Below are positions 39,941-44,532 of a stretch of DNA of 64,000 nucleotides, piece after piece (within the stretch, counting starts at the first letter, position 1; the number at the start of each line of letters is the position of its first letter). The DNA comes from Bradyrhizobium sp. AZCC 1721. GTDB taxonomy: Bacteria > Pseudomonadota > Alphaproteobacteria > Rhizobiales > Xanthobacteraceae. Where the stretch lies: the NCBI RefSeq assembly GCF_036924715.1, contig NZ_JAZHSB010000001.1, positions 3,339,001-3,403,000 of the forward strand, in the 5' to 3' direction. The notes beneath the pieces were generated by a model. That model was not told where the DNA came from and made no database searches. It worked only from the letters and a program-made list of their open reading frames with translations. A program made the position numbers and the translations under genes.

Positions 39941-40720
39941 TCACCCCCACAACGCCTTCACAATCGCATCCAACCCATCCGTCAGCGCCGCAGGTCCCGG
40001 CTGCAGGATGATGGTCGACTTGATTTCGACAATGCGGTTGTTGCGCACGGCAGGAATCTCGCCCCAGCCTGGACGCTGCCGGATGCGGTCGGGCACGACT
40101 TTCTTGCCGCACCAGGACGCGAGGATCACGTCGGGCGCGGCGTCACGCAGCGTATCCGACGAAATGATCCGGTCCTTGGCGGCCTGCTGAAACCGCAGCT
40201 TCGGCAGCGCGTCCTCGCCGCCGGCGATCTCGATCAGCTCGGAAACCCAGCCGATGCCGGAGATCAGCGGATCGTCCCACTCCTCGAAATAGACTTTGGG
40301 CTTCGGTGCGGGCCGGGGCGTCGCGGCGATCCGCGCGAGGCGCTCTTCAAAGCCGCGCGCGAGTTGATCCGCGCGCTCCGCCGCACCGACCATAGCCCCC
40401 AGCGTCCGGATCATCGCGAGGATGCCCGCGATGTCGCGCTGGTTGAAGACATGGACGGCGACGCCCGTGCGCACGAGGTCGGCAACGATGTTTGCCTGCA
40501 GATCGGAAAAGGCGAGCACGAGGTCGGGCTCAAGCGCCAGAATCTTTGGAATGTCCGCCGATATGAAGGCCGAGACCCGCGGCTTGTCGCGACGGACGCC
40601 CGGCGGCCGCACCGCATAGCCGGAGACACCGACGATGCGGTCCTGCTCGCCGAGCAGGTACAGCGTCTCCACGGTCTCCTCGGTCAGACAGATGATCCGG
40701 CGGGGCGGGAACTGGCGCAT
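39941..40720 (-). CDS. BtuF-like cobalamin/siderophore-binding protein without signal peptide
   Basis: The protein has 259 residues from the ATG at 40720; in-frame ATGs at 40750 and 40804 are also possible, and none has a good ribosome site. It follows the class III periplasmic binding pattern: RIICLTEETVETLYLLGEQDRIVGVSGYA, then ILALEPDLVLAFSDLQ, a long linking helix, and the second lobe with DVILASWCGKK. No start gives a signal peptide and no permease or ATPase gene is adjacent. It might be a cytoplasmic ligand-binding protein or depend on a remote transporter. Confidence 0.78.
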   Translation of the reverse strand: MRQFPPRRIICLTEETVETLYLLGEQDRIVGVSGYAVRPPGVRRDKPRVSAFISADIPKILALEPDLVLAFSDLQANIVADLVRTGVAVHVFNQRDIAGILAMIRTLGAMVGAAERADQLARGFEERLARIAATPRPAPKPKVYFEEWDDPLISGIGWVSELIEIAGGEDALPKLRFQQAAKDRIISSDTLRDAAPDVILASWCGKKVVPDRIRQRPGWGEIPAVRNNRIVEIKSTIILQPGPAALTDGLDAIVKALWG

Positions 40721-40844
40721 GCCGACGGTATGCCGAATTTCGCGCGCCATGTCACGGCGGCCATTACCTCGGAGGTCATTGCCTGATTTACCGGCAGCCT
40801 CCATTCTGTTCAGGAAATCACTTCAAAGAAAAGCCGGAGGACGA

Positions 40845-41245: not shown

Positions 41246-42295
41246 TCAGGCCATCTCCACCGTCTGCACGGCGTTCAGCATTCCGGTTTGCGGGTGACAA
41301 TCCACATATTCGAAAAGCTGTTCGTCGGCGCGGGCGACGGTGACCTCGTGGTACAGCCGTAGTTTTGCGGCCGGTCCCAGGGTCGACAGGTACTTCATGG
41401 CAGCGCCGAAAATCCTGACATGGGTCGGGTGCGATTCAGCCCAGCGCTCCAGCGCCGACAGGCTCTTCCACCAGCTCATGCCGTAGGACTTTTCGGCTGT
41501 CGCGCCGTCGGGGCCCACAACGGTCATGTAGCGGTTGGCGTAGCAGCCGATTAAACGTCCCTGGTCGCGGAGGAAATCCATGCCTTCGCGCAGCACCGGC
41601 TCGACATCGCCGAGGTACATCTTCCGCTCGGTGGCTTCGGTATCGCCCCAATCCTGGCCCGAGCGGATCAGGCAGATATTGTCATGCGGAATGATCCGGA
41701 TGCGCGCGCCCTCGCGAATGGCTCGCGCGGAACCTGAGGGCGCCATCTCGCTGGTTTGGGACAACGGGATGCGGTCGCGCATGCCGCCCCAATAGGCATG
41801 CTCCAAAACCTCGCCGCTCATGCCGTCGGCGAGAACGGCGACGCCTTCGGGCCTTTCGAGCGAAGAGAACAGCGTCTCATAGCCCTCGACGGATGGGTAA
41901 AGCGCCTCGATGAAAGTCCCGCACCCGTTATTGGTGCGTTGCCCGCCAGTCCAGCGCTCGCGCACGGCGGGAAACCAGCGATCGAATTTTTGCCGGTCGT
42001 CCCAATAGGCCACCGTGACGACGTTGGTGAAACCGGCCTCGTCCATATAGCTCGCGCGGTCCCAATGGGACGGGCCATCCGCGGCTGCGAAATCCGAAGC
42101 GAGCCGGGCCAACGCCTGCTCCGCGGCTACCGGGAGCGCGCCGCGCGATTGGATGCCGAAATAGGCCATCACCACCCGCGTCACGCTTGGCTTGTGCCGC
42201 GCTACGAAGGACGGGTAGGGCGGCGCATAATCTTCACCGACGCGGCGGAGACGCGTTCGCGCGGTTTGCAGATGCGCAGGGATTGCGGATTCCAT
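41246..42295 (-). CDS. oxd: Aldoxime dehydratase (phenylacetaldoxime dehydratase type)
   Basis: This heme enzyme dehydrates aldoximes (R-CH=NOH) to nitriles. The 349 residues match OxdA/OxdB-type enzymes in length and pattern: AYWGGMRDRIPLSQ (with a conserved arginine, about 173), IRSGQDW (serine about 212), AESHPTHVRIF (candidate heme-ligand histidine, 289-292) and LYHEVTVA (His316, candidate distal catalytic histidine). Residue roles follow from the studied Rhodococcus enzyme and are approximate. It is encoded 31 bases after the nitrilase gene; AAGGAG precedes its ATG. The nitrile produced is the expected substrate of the neighbour. Confidence 0.9.
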   Translation of the reverse strand: MESAIPAHLQTARTRLRRVGEDYAPPYPSFVARHKPSVTRVVMAYFGIQSRGALPVAAEQALARLASDFAAADGPSHWDRASYMDEAGFTNVVTVAYWDDRQKFDRWFPAVRERWTGGQRTNNGCGTFIEALYPSVEGYETLFSSLERPEGVAVLADGMSGEVLEHAYWGGMRDRIPLSQTSEMAPSGSARAIREGARIRIIPHDNICLIRSGQDWGDTEATERKMYLGDVEPVLREGMDFLRDQGRLIGCYANRYMTVVGPDGATAEKSYGMSWWKSLSALERWAESHPTHVRIFGAAMKYLSTLGPAAKLRLYHEVTVARADEQLFEYVDCHPQTGMLNAVQTVEMA

Positions 42296-42326
42296 GGGCC
42301 TGCTCCTTCTCGAAAAATGAAGCGCC

Positions 42327-43340
42327 TCAGGCCTGCAGCCTGATTTCGCTCATGACCTCGGCATCGACAGGAAGCGAGAAGTGTTCGACGCGGTTGGCGC
42401 GCGTGGGGTTGAGCAGCAGCCGCGTGACGTCGGGCCGCGAATAATGGCCGGCCGGATCGGCGGCGTTCTTCGCTACCCCGATCATGCCGAGGTCGATGTC
42501 GGCGTACAGAATGCCTTCCTGGTCAGGCGGAAGTTTCTCGGCCAGCGAACTGCCGTCCGGCCCGTAGATCACGGCGTGGCCGCCGCCAACATGCAGGAAG
42601 GCATGTTTTTCGGGAGAGTCGCAGAGCTCATCGATCATGGCCAGCGAGACGACCGCGCAGGGGCCGAGGAAGAAGCACGAGCCTTCGACCGCATAGACCT
42701 TGCTGGCGGCATTGTTGACCTCATGGCCGAGCGCATGCGCGAACGGATCGTACAGCGAAAAACTCGGCCAGGCGCCGACATGGACCTGTTCGTTCTGGGC
42801 GTACATCGCGTATTTCGACAGCGGCTGCAGATGCTCCCAGCAGCACAAGGCACCGAGCCGTCCGATGTCGGCGCGGTCGTGGACGGCGAGATCGCTGCCG
42901 TCGCCTTCACCGAACACGGTACGTTCGGCATGGGTCGGCCGCAGCTTTCGACGCTTGGCGATGGTCTCGCCGTCGGGACCGATCAGCCATTGCGCGATAT
43001 AGAGGCTTCCGCCGTCGCGTTCGGACAGCCCGAGCACGGCCGTTAGCTTGGCGCGCTTGACGGCTCGGCAGATCTTTTCCGCCTGTGGGCTGTCAAAGGC
43101 GAGCGAGTTGTCAAAGTAGCGCTGCACAAAACCGCGGCCGATCGCCCAGGCAGGCGCACCGAGCCAGATCTGCCACGGGTACCCGGGAATGAAGGTCTCG
43201 GGAAACGCGATCAGTTTCGCGCCTTTCGCGGAAGCTTCCTCGATCAGGTTGATGGTCTTGTCCACGGTTGCGTCGAGATCGAGAAAAACCGGCGCCGCCT
43301 GAACCACCGCCACCTTGTATTTCTGATGAACCAGACCCAT
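42327..43340 (-). CDS. Nitrilase
   Basis: The 337-residue enzyme hydrolyses nitriles to carboxylic acids and ammonia. The catalytic triad is clear: Glu48 in FPETFIPGYPW, Lys132 in KRRKLRPTHAER and Cys167 in ALCCWEHLQPL. The longer insertions typical of true nitrilases rather than amidases are present (FVQRYFDNSLAFDSP). The start is the ATG at 43340: the ATG at 43349 directly abuts GGGAGG with no spacing, whereas 43340 is nine bases away. It lies downstream of an AraC regulator and upstream of oxd on the same strand. Confidence 0.93.
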   Translation of the reverse strand: MGLVHQKYKVAVVQAAPVFLDLDATVDKTINLIEEASAKGAKLIAFPETFIPGYPWQIWLGAPAWAIGRGFVQRYFDNSLAFDSPQAEKICRAVKRAKLTAVLGLSERDGGSLYIAQWLIGPDGETIAKRRKLRPTHAERTVFGEGDGSDLAVHDRADIGRLGALCCWEHLQPLSKYAMYAQNEQVHVGAWPSFSLYDPFAHALGHEVNNAASKVYAVEGSCFFLGPCAVVSLAMIDELCDSPEKHAFLHVGGGHAVIYGPDGSSLAEKLPPDQEGILYADIDLGMIGVAKNAADPAGHYSRPDVTRLLLNPTRANRVEHFSLPVDAEVMSEIRLQA

Positions 43341-43515
43341 CGAACTCATCCTCCCGCATTGATGACTGACACTCGCTGACCCCGAGCCTACAGCCATGGC
43401 AGCGCGTGCCGCTTGTCCGCGGCGGAACGAAAACTTGTCTTAACCGGCAGGTGGACAGCGCGCGTGGCGGCGTCAGATGCGTGCGCGCGACGGGAAAGGA
43501 GAGGGGCGGGAGGCG

Positions 43516-44532
43516 TTATTTGTGCTCGCGCCATTCGCGCGGCGAGATGCCGAAGCGCTGCTTGAAGATGCGGCTGAAATGGGCGAGGTCGTTGAAGCCC
43601 CAGGCGAAGGCGATCTCGCCGATGTGCCGGGCATGGTAGGCAGGGTCGGCAAGATCTCGCTTGCAGCGCTCCAGCCGTTGCGCCTGCACGTAGCTGCGGA
43701 ACGAGGACCGTTCGGCGGCCATCAGATTGCTGGCATAACGCGGCGAGATTCCGACTGCGGCTGCAGCGCGCGGCAGCGATAGTTCGGGATCGGAAAGATG
43801 CGTCAGGATATGGTTCTTGAGGCGATAGAGCAACGCCGACCGGTGGGCCGATTGGTCCGGCAAGCGGGCATGCAGCCTTTCGGCAAGCGTCATCGCAAGC
43901 AGGTCGAGCGCCTGGTCGAGCAGGCGCGTTGCGGCGGCGGGATCAACCAGTTCGATCGTCTTGCTCACATTGTGCACGAAATCATATGTCAGCCGTTCGA
44001 GCGGACGATCGCCTGCAAACGTCGTCGCGGTCAGACTATCGAACGAGCCGACGCGTTGTTGCAGCAATTTCCGCGGCATCTGGAAGATCGTCTGCGAAAA
44101 GCTGTCGTCGAACCGCAGCTCGTAGGGGCGGGTGGTGTCGTAAATGACGAATTGTCCCGCAGAGACGACAGCCTCGCGGCCATCCTGGAACACGCCGTTC
44201 ACGCCGTTGTTGCCCAGCGCCATCAGCACGAAATCTTCGCTGGCGCGGGCTATTCGCGACGGCGTGCGGAATACCCGCTGTGCCGTGGAATCGACCTGCG
44301 TGAGCGCGACCTGTCCGATTCTGGATTGCGACACCGAGCCCCAAAACGCGCCGCGCAGGTCCGATTTGCAGTCGAGCCCGACGAAGGTGTCGCACACGAT
44401 GTCCTGCCAGACCGCAAGCCGGCGCTCCGGAAGGCAAGATCTGGTGTCGAGCACGACAGCCACAATGGGGTCTCCACGAGCCATCCCGGTACGTTGCCCG
44501 GGCCTTGGCGCATCCAAATAAGCAAGCTCCAT
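43516..44532 (-). CDS. AraC family regulator of the nitrilase/aldoxime cluster
   Basis: The 338-residue protein has an N-terminal ligand-sensing domain of the AraC-binding type 2 (about 30-200, including GQFVIYDTTRPYELRF) and a C-terminal AraC DNA-binding domain. Its two helix-turn-helix segments are LSLPRAAAAVGISPRYASNLM and IGEIAFAWGFNDLAHFSRIFKQRFG, with the final SPREWREH. It lies on the same strand, 175 bases upstream of the nitrilase gene. Similar regulators control nitrilase operons in Rhodococcus and Pseudomonas, so control of the two enzyme genes is likely but inferred. Confidence 0.9.
   Translation of the reverse strand: MELAYLDAPRPGQRTGMARGDPIVAVVLDTRSCLPERRLAVWQDIVCDTFVGLDCKSDLRGAFWGSVSQSRIGQVALTQVDSTAQRVFRTPSRIARASEDFVLMALGNNGVNGVFQDGREAVVSAGQFVIYDTTRPYELRFDDSFSQTIFQMPRKLLQQRVGSFDSLTATTFAGDRPLERLTYDFVHNVSKTIELVDPAAATRLLDQALDLLAMTLAERLHARLPDQSAHRSALLYRLKNHILTHLSDPELSLPRAAAAVGISPRYASNLMAAERSSFRSYVQAQRLERCKRDLADPAYHARHIGEIAFAWGFNDLAHFSRIFKQRFGISPREWREHK

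Follow-up and report, generated by a model that had tools for sequence, protein, structure and literature searches.

A nitR-nit-oxd operon of Bradyrhizobium with a predicted direct-repeat operator that differs in step with its AraC-type regulator

RESULTS AND DISCUSSION

We describe a locus of Bradyrhizobium sp. AZCC 1721, lying in a 64-kb window (the whole stretch of DNA analyzed, out of a 7.15-Mb genome in a single contig), in which an AraC-type regulator gene (nitR), a nitrilase gene (nit) and a heme aldoxime dehydratase gene (oxd) follow one another on the minus strand, with a putative operator, a direct repeat of 22-bp period, before nit. Comparison of related loci indicates that both half-sites of this predicted operator have changed together, in step with the recognition helices of NitR. 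The best overall explanation, which we consider likely, is an inducible catabolic and detoxifying nit-oxd operon under NitR; in the clade of this strain, nitR would have been relocated and NitR would have diverged together with its operator. The features of the locus, in window coordinates, are as follows.

43516..44463, minus strand: nitR, AraC/XylS-type regulator, 315 residues from its GTG (PF14525, PF12833; conserved ribosome site)
43410..43439, minus strand: predicted NitR operator GACAAGTTTTCGTTCCGCCGCGGACAAGCG, direct repeat of 22-bp period (phylogenetic footprint; sole exact match in the genome; a relaxed pattern occurs in 163 of 242 genomes, with one copy in each)
43434..43439, minus strand: distal half-site GACAAG (sequence, locus comparison)
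43412..43417, minus strand: proximal half-site GACAAG, probably adjoining the -35 region (sequence, locus comparison)
43385..43390, minus strand: candidate -10 element TAGGCT, suggested by the kept block GGCtGTAGGcT and missed by a sigma-70 scan
42327..43340, minus strand: nit, nitrilase, 337 residues from the preferred start (PF00795; closest solved structure 6zby, NitA; E48, K132, C167)
41246..42295, minus strand: oxd, heme aldoxime dehydratase, OxdBr/OxdA-like, 349 residues (PF13816; closest solved structures 3w08 and 3a15; R175, S212, H292 and H316 kept)

The predicted operator and its conservation

The comparison covers 141 loci, namely the window, 60 loci from a search of the genus and 80 from a contig search, all selected for a strong Oxd match (the 60 come from among the strong matches listed, and the 80 are the best 80 of 151); removing 20 loci with identical Oxd ends as duplicates leaves 121 non-redundant loci. 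In all 141 (121 non-redundant), nit immediately precedes oxd; nitR shares their strand in 33 of the 121, is divergent in 87 and is not beside nit in one. When the stretch between nitR and nit is aligned across the same-strand clade, a strongly conserved block appears about 100 bp before nit, GACAAGTTTTCGTTCCGCCGCGGACAAGCG at 43410-43439, which reads GACAAG-N16-GACAAG. Half-sites about two helical turns apart are typical of the AraC/XylS family, and the sequence before nit shows such a direct repeat, with half-sites 22 bp apart.

This pair is present in 33/33 same-strand loci, exactly in 32 and with one change in the last. Elsewhere in the genus the main-class form is GTCGAG-N16-GTCGAG: pairs of the GTCGA[G/A/C/T] type, a few with one change, are found with equal period and similar spacer in 84 of 86 divergent loci (one of the 87, L055, was dropped because its nitrilase start was not found, and L037, the locus with nitR not beside nit, was left out of both groups), and in 80 of these 84 the half-sites are identical over five bases. 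The other two divergent loci, L071 and L114, have a third pair, GCCAAC/GCCAAG (GCCAA-N17-GCCAA, again of 22-bp period), and a NitR of another lineage, 38% identical to that of the window. The consensus sequences of the two main classes differ in 6 of 31 comparable columns, and four of these differences are the same two changes in both half-sites; with six random changes, two or more concerted ones would arise with P ~0.0005 at period 22 and ~0.006 at any period from 8 to 28, values that ignore relatedness and come from a test designed after seeing the data.

The 30-base pattern GACAAGTTTTCGTTCCGCCGCGGACAAGCG has one exact match in this genome, and allowing one mismatch adds two sites, against three for the reversed control, so that we propose no further regulon members in this genome. 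A relaxed pattern, GWCRANTTTTNNTNCCNNNNNNGWCRANCG, occurs in 163 of 242 Bradyrhizobium genomes, never more than once in each (reversed control, 0/242); since the pattern is found at most once per genome, NitR appears, by this prediction, to have a single target promoter. For two nit-oxd clusters that are more distant, L221 and L272, a script found no clear 22-bp repeat, and by eye L221 shows a weak AACAAA-N16-CCCAAG. As far as we searched the open-access literature, we found no report of the predicted NitR operator.

Half-site bases and NitR recognition helices

In all 33 same-strand loci, the second helix-turn-helix motif of NitR (HTH2) reads LAHFSR and base 4 is A in both half-sites. Among the 84 GTCGA loci, HTH2 reads LSHFGR or VSHFGR, and base 4 is G in both half-sites in 83; the GCCAA loci L071 and L114 combine FGHFSR with A, and a further 20/20 loci combine LSHFGR with G. 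The D-to-S change in the first motif (HTH1) coincides with a G-to-A change at base 6 in one clade of the NitR tree, a single event. Because three GTCGA loci carry YASSL in HTH1, resembling the YAS of the window, it is HTH2, not that part of HTH1, that seems tied to these bases. We think it reasonably probable that tandem half-sites co-changed in at least three NitR lineages, with the HTH2 Ser/Gly position (S297) tied to base-4 A/G, that one clade relocated nitR, and that oxd is removable behind a nitR-operator-nitrilase core.

Under the mechanism that we propose, NitR, an AraC/XylS-type activator, would bind the repeat at 43410-43439 as a pair of monomers, and an aldoxime, a nitrile or a derived signal bound to NitR would lead to recruitment of RNA polymerase to a promoter that closely follows the repeat. 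The proximal half-site would lie by the presumed -35 region, and the -10 element may be TAGGCT, 21 nt downstream of that half-site. The nit and oxd genes would be co-transcribed, the heme iron of Oxd would dehydrate an aldoxime to the nitrile, and the nitrilase would hydrolyze the nitrile to acid and ammonia. In this clade, nitR would have moved onto the strand of nit-oxd, with joint divergence of the NitR recognition helices and the half-sites from the rest of the genus.

Several observations weigh against this sequence-based explanation. The covariation of helix and operator involves two or three transitions only. Nine genomes from the relaxed-pattern list have GTCGA[GAC]/GACGAG, and HTH2 is unchanged in all eight that were fetched; since this class keeps the main-class helices, base 2 does not strictly follow the helix. 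On the tree, the distal half-site changes at base 6 on 11 occasions, versus two changes of the HTH1 residue. The sigma-70 scan gave no promoter at the predicted operator. Finally, L037 (genome G032) is the single locus in which nitR does not adjoin nit: its nit retains a near-complete operator, and nitR (76% identical) is found at the end of a different contig (L232), by the upstream genes usual in the clade. In G032, something thus seems to intervene between nitR and nit-oxd. A strict helix-to-base code was also considered and rejected, as base 2 varies with unchanged helices and distal base 6 is loose.

Gene content and enzyme families

A preliminary description of the locus, made from sequence alone, had proposed a complete module from aldoxime over nitrile to acid, with its own AraC regulator and with regulator, nitrilase and dehydratase in that order on one strand. 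All three genes are indeed there, on the minus strand, at 43516-44463, 42327-43340 and 41246-42295, with nit and oxd 31 nt apart and a convergent thioesterase gene 2 nt off the oxd end; family scores and conserved synteny exclude a chance origin of the module. The open frame of nitR offers an alternative ATG at 44532 that is not general among same-strand loci, and in 30/33 of them an in-frame GTG stands behind a GGAG/GGAGG-like sequence (the 30 whose start regions were compared as DNA, the other three being compared as protein only), so that nitR most likely begins at GTG 44463. The nitrilase frame extends to 43397, beyond its preferred start; the protein most likely begins at ATG 43340 (MGLVHQKYKV), 9 nt after a GGAGG.

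Oxd matches PF13816 with an E value of 9e-84, is the product of the single PF13816 gene in the genome, and scores 340 bits to 3w08, 329 to 3a15 and 185 to 7f2y (named phenylacetaldoxime dehydratase). In the alignment to 3a15, its residues R175, S212, H292 and H316 align with R178, S219, H299 and H320 of OxdRE, which we take to be heme-ligand or catalytic positions. The loss of heme binding that the preliminary description had named as speaking against the module is thus not indicated, all four positions being kept. With 409.8 bits against a cut-off of 600 for the NCBIfam OxdA equivalog NF050090, we place Oxd, by score, in the same family but in a different equivalog.

The nitrilase matches PF00795 with an E value of 2e-51, and its E-K-C triad is intact as first described (E48, K132 and C167, numbered from ATG 43340). 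It falls below the cut-off of the NCBIfam Nit6803 model TIGR04048 (226.6 bits against 502.6), and its best structural match is NitA 6zby (426 bits), presumably an arylacetonitrilase. The genome has one strong copy each of oxd and nit, and elsewhere a partial nitrilase match of 28%. The residues of a heme Oxd, an adjoining nitrilase with the E-K-C triad and an adjoining AraC-type regulator are all found together at this locus.

NitR combines AraC_binding_2 (PF14525) with HTH_18 (PF12833), so that the claim of an own AraC regulator holds, and it is sharpened by the specific predicted operator before nit. Its best NCBIfam model is FeaR (NF007243) at 156 bits, under the cut-off of 199, which marks NitR by score as FeaR-like but not FeaR; FeaR itself, we assume, answers to arylacetaldehydes. 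DNA-bound MarA and Rob were not among the matches listed in the PDB alignments of NitR.

The chain from aldoxime over nitrile to acid and ammonia draws support from the protein families, from the residues of the active sites, from the literature and from the fact that the genes adjoin in every locus sampled. Its substrates are probably arylacetaldoximes: given the kinship of the nitrilase with NitA 6zby, the FeaR-like character of NitR and the activity of a homologue on mandelonitrile and phenylacetonitrile, aldoximes and nitriles of the arylacet type would be the likeliest.

Orientation of nitR

Among the loci compared, same-strand nitR was restricted to the relatives grouped around B. lablabi, B. 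valentinum, B. retamae and B. murdochi, and its carriers are mostly close to this genome by gyrB. A single change between the same-strand and divergent states is needed in each of the NitR, nitrilase and Oxd trees, and the flanks are conserved across the same-strand clade (thioesterase, binding protein, M20 peptidase, GNAT and DUF2161 genes). The same-strand layout is probably derived, since in the annotated plasmid clusters with nit that were compared the AraC-type gene is divergent, and it lies beyond what we found in the open-access literature. A foreign origin of the locus was considered and rejected: its G+C content is like that of the surroundings, flanking genes are kept across the clade and same-strand carriers are mostly gyrB neighbors, with no sign of a recent acquisition on any of these counts. 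As a separate observation, a gene for a PF01497 periplasmic-binding-protein-like product (39941-40804, minus strand) adjoins the operon throughout the same-strand clade; the product is distant to heme, B12 and siderophore binders.

Distribution and dispensability of oxd

Matches to PF13816 are found in 166/242 Bradyrhizobium genomes, compared with 8/385 genomes from the class and 16/398 from the phylum, the last two counts including Bradyrhizobium genomes and weak matches; in the contig search, the relatives of Oxd come nearly all from Bradyrhizobium. The operator is present and PF13816 absent in 19 genomes, counted by eye across two result tables. Eighteen of these loci were fetched (G092 had no listed place), and in each of the 18 the operator is accompanied by nitR and by nit, or at least by the beginning of nit. 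In all 17 loci that can be assessed, where the contig passes nit, oxd is absent with nitR and nit kept (the contig of G159 ends within nit); the short Oxd-query hits in L275 and L283 (35 and 36 residues) fall on the end of nit and are due to the extension of the query frame. For 8 of the 17, the sequence missing relative to the best-aligned relative is 1028-1037 bp, the size of oxd, with collinear flanks. Other genomes carry a broken oxd, in two frames in G002 and G078, in two pieces in G072 (breaks that in these three could be sequencing errors), without its N-terminal part in G130, and with 41 residues left in G104; nit and nitR are kept in G002, G078 and G130 (the broken-oxd loci being L228, L229, L234 and L235, together with G072). 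On a nitrilase tree of 138 tips, oxd presence changes 12 times, against a mean of 16.3 and a lowest value of 14 for shuffled labels, and so follows the tree only in part; individual changes may be losses or gains.

These comparisons point to oxd as the dispensable part of the module, and its presence in some genomes and absence from others, behind a nitrilase that stays constant, suggests that the conserved core is the use of nitriles and not of aldoximes. The NitR-controlled operon might accordingly be refined into a core for nitrile detoxification or nitrogen scavenging, in which nitriles would be the signal for NitR and oxd would serve as an add-on that broadens the input. The retention of nitR and nit in 17/17 assessable genomes without oxd, the 12 state changes on the tree and the three genomes with broken oxd all favor this refinement, but most operator-bearing genomes do have oxd, and we hold it to be a serious possibility that falls slightly short of probable. 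A loss of oxd mediated by direct repeats was considered and rejected: in the window, the ends of nit and oxd have GGCCTGAGGC in common, but across 119 loci the longest common string has a distribution similar to that for random places.

Aldoximes are compounds made by plants, and the preliminary description had pointed to auxin synthesis, for what it took to be a plant-associated organism. The corresponding alternative, in which indole-3-acetaldoxime would be the actual substrate and the operon would serve to supply the plant with indole-3-acetic acid (IAA), seems unlikely to us. In its favor, the nitrilase is closest to NitA, assumed above to be an arylacetonitrilase, and characterized Oxds accept indole-3-acetaldoxime, with OxdBr1 compared with OxdB and OxdRG in specificity (PMC8955678); the same review considers IAA production via Oxd possible but unproven. 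Against it, the Bradyrhizobium nitrilase homologue cited there prefers mandelonitrile and phenylacetonitrile (PMC8955678), and many relatives lack oxd while nit stays. Furthermore, no NodC was found in this genome, the search reaching just 42 bits where the cut-off is 550, so that plant association is not established for the strain, although nodulation is not the only form of such association. Auxin may be one product of the operon, and less probably its purpose. More doubtful still is that the repeat serves another regulator or is a promoter element, with NitR acting elsewhere: the proximal half-site does lie where a -35 element would be expected, and NitR binding to the repeat is predicted, but there is one site per genome, before nit wherever its place was examined, the half-sites differ by NitR lineage, and direct repeats of 21-22 bp also precede some other AraC-linked nit/oxd clusters.

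Comparison with known systems

The module belongs to an already described kind, since PMC8955678 and PMC1199592 report nit-oxd clusters with an AraC gene. For Bacillus and Bradyrhizobium, the former, a 2022 review, gives the two genes upstream of oxd as probably a nitrilase and an AraC-family NitR; it describes Oxds as abundant in Bradyrhizobium and names Bradyrhizobium sp. LTSPM299, with the studied enzyme OxdBr1, about 47% identical to the OxdRG/OxdK group. The LTSPM299 nitR-nit-oxdBr1 cluster (PMC8955678) shares with our locus the genus, the three genes and the position of nitrilase and NitR upstream of oxd, and the Oxd described here, like OxdBr1, scores the OxdRG/OxdK group best. The nitrilase-phenylacetaldoxime dehydratase pairs of Bacillus sp. 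OxB-1 (PMC8955678) and P. syringae (PMC1199592) also have oxd after nit and an AraC gene alongside; their araC is on the other strand (PMC1199592), whereas nitR here is on the same strand and not divergent, and Oxd, at 340 bits to 3w08 versus 185 to 7f2y, belongs by score to the OxdA/OxdBr branch.

The AraC/XylS-type activators of nitrilase genes called NitR in Rhodococcus rhodochrous J1 and Alcaligenes faecalis are a further likeness (PMC6265244). That system differs in being a nitrile operon whose putative site is called palindromically located; "direct repeat" has no match in the available text of that paper. Clusters of oxd with amidase and nitrile hydratase genes (in Rhodococcus and Pseudomonas, PMC8955678, and on plasmids of Pantoea, Rahnella, Rhizobium and Agrobacterium) likewise pair an aldoxime dehydratase with an AraC-type or helix-turn-helix neighbor, but have nitrile hydratase and amidase instead of a nitrilase.

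For Bradyrhizobium, an operon of this kind is ordinary. The predicted operator offers a testable handle on the inducer of aldoxime and nitrile use, the induction of which is called underexplored in PMC8955678, in a major soil and root genus, and the paired changes of half-sites and helices, with one site per genome, are clean natural material for studying how an AraC-type regulator moves together with its site.

Plasmid clusters of an AraC-type gene, nit-oxd and a transporter gene in Erwinia, Pantoea, E. coli and Acinetobacter share the nit-oxd order and the AraC gene with our locus and, by a loose 6-of-7 criterion, also have a repeat of 22-bp period before nit. They differ in their divergent AraC-type gene, whose product is ~30% identical to the NitR described here, in the downstream transporter and in half-sites of the TTCCTT type. 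Complete clusters of this kind were observed on five plasmids (L237, L241, L242, L244 and L247); the hosts are plant-associated enterics (Erwinia, Pantoea), E. coli and Acinetobacter, and some of the plasmids are conjugative, with the cluster near insertion sequence elements or recombinase genes. A second, distant Oxd (about 29-33% identical) is present in some Bradyrhizobium (L223 in genome G019, L222, L224, L225, L233 and Bradyrhizobium plasmids), adjoining a distant nitrilase (32%) in L223 and L224; on a plasmid of a nodule isolate, the distant oxd copy lies after ABC transporter genes and before a LysR gene.

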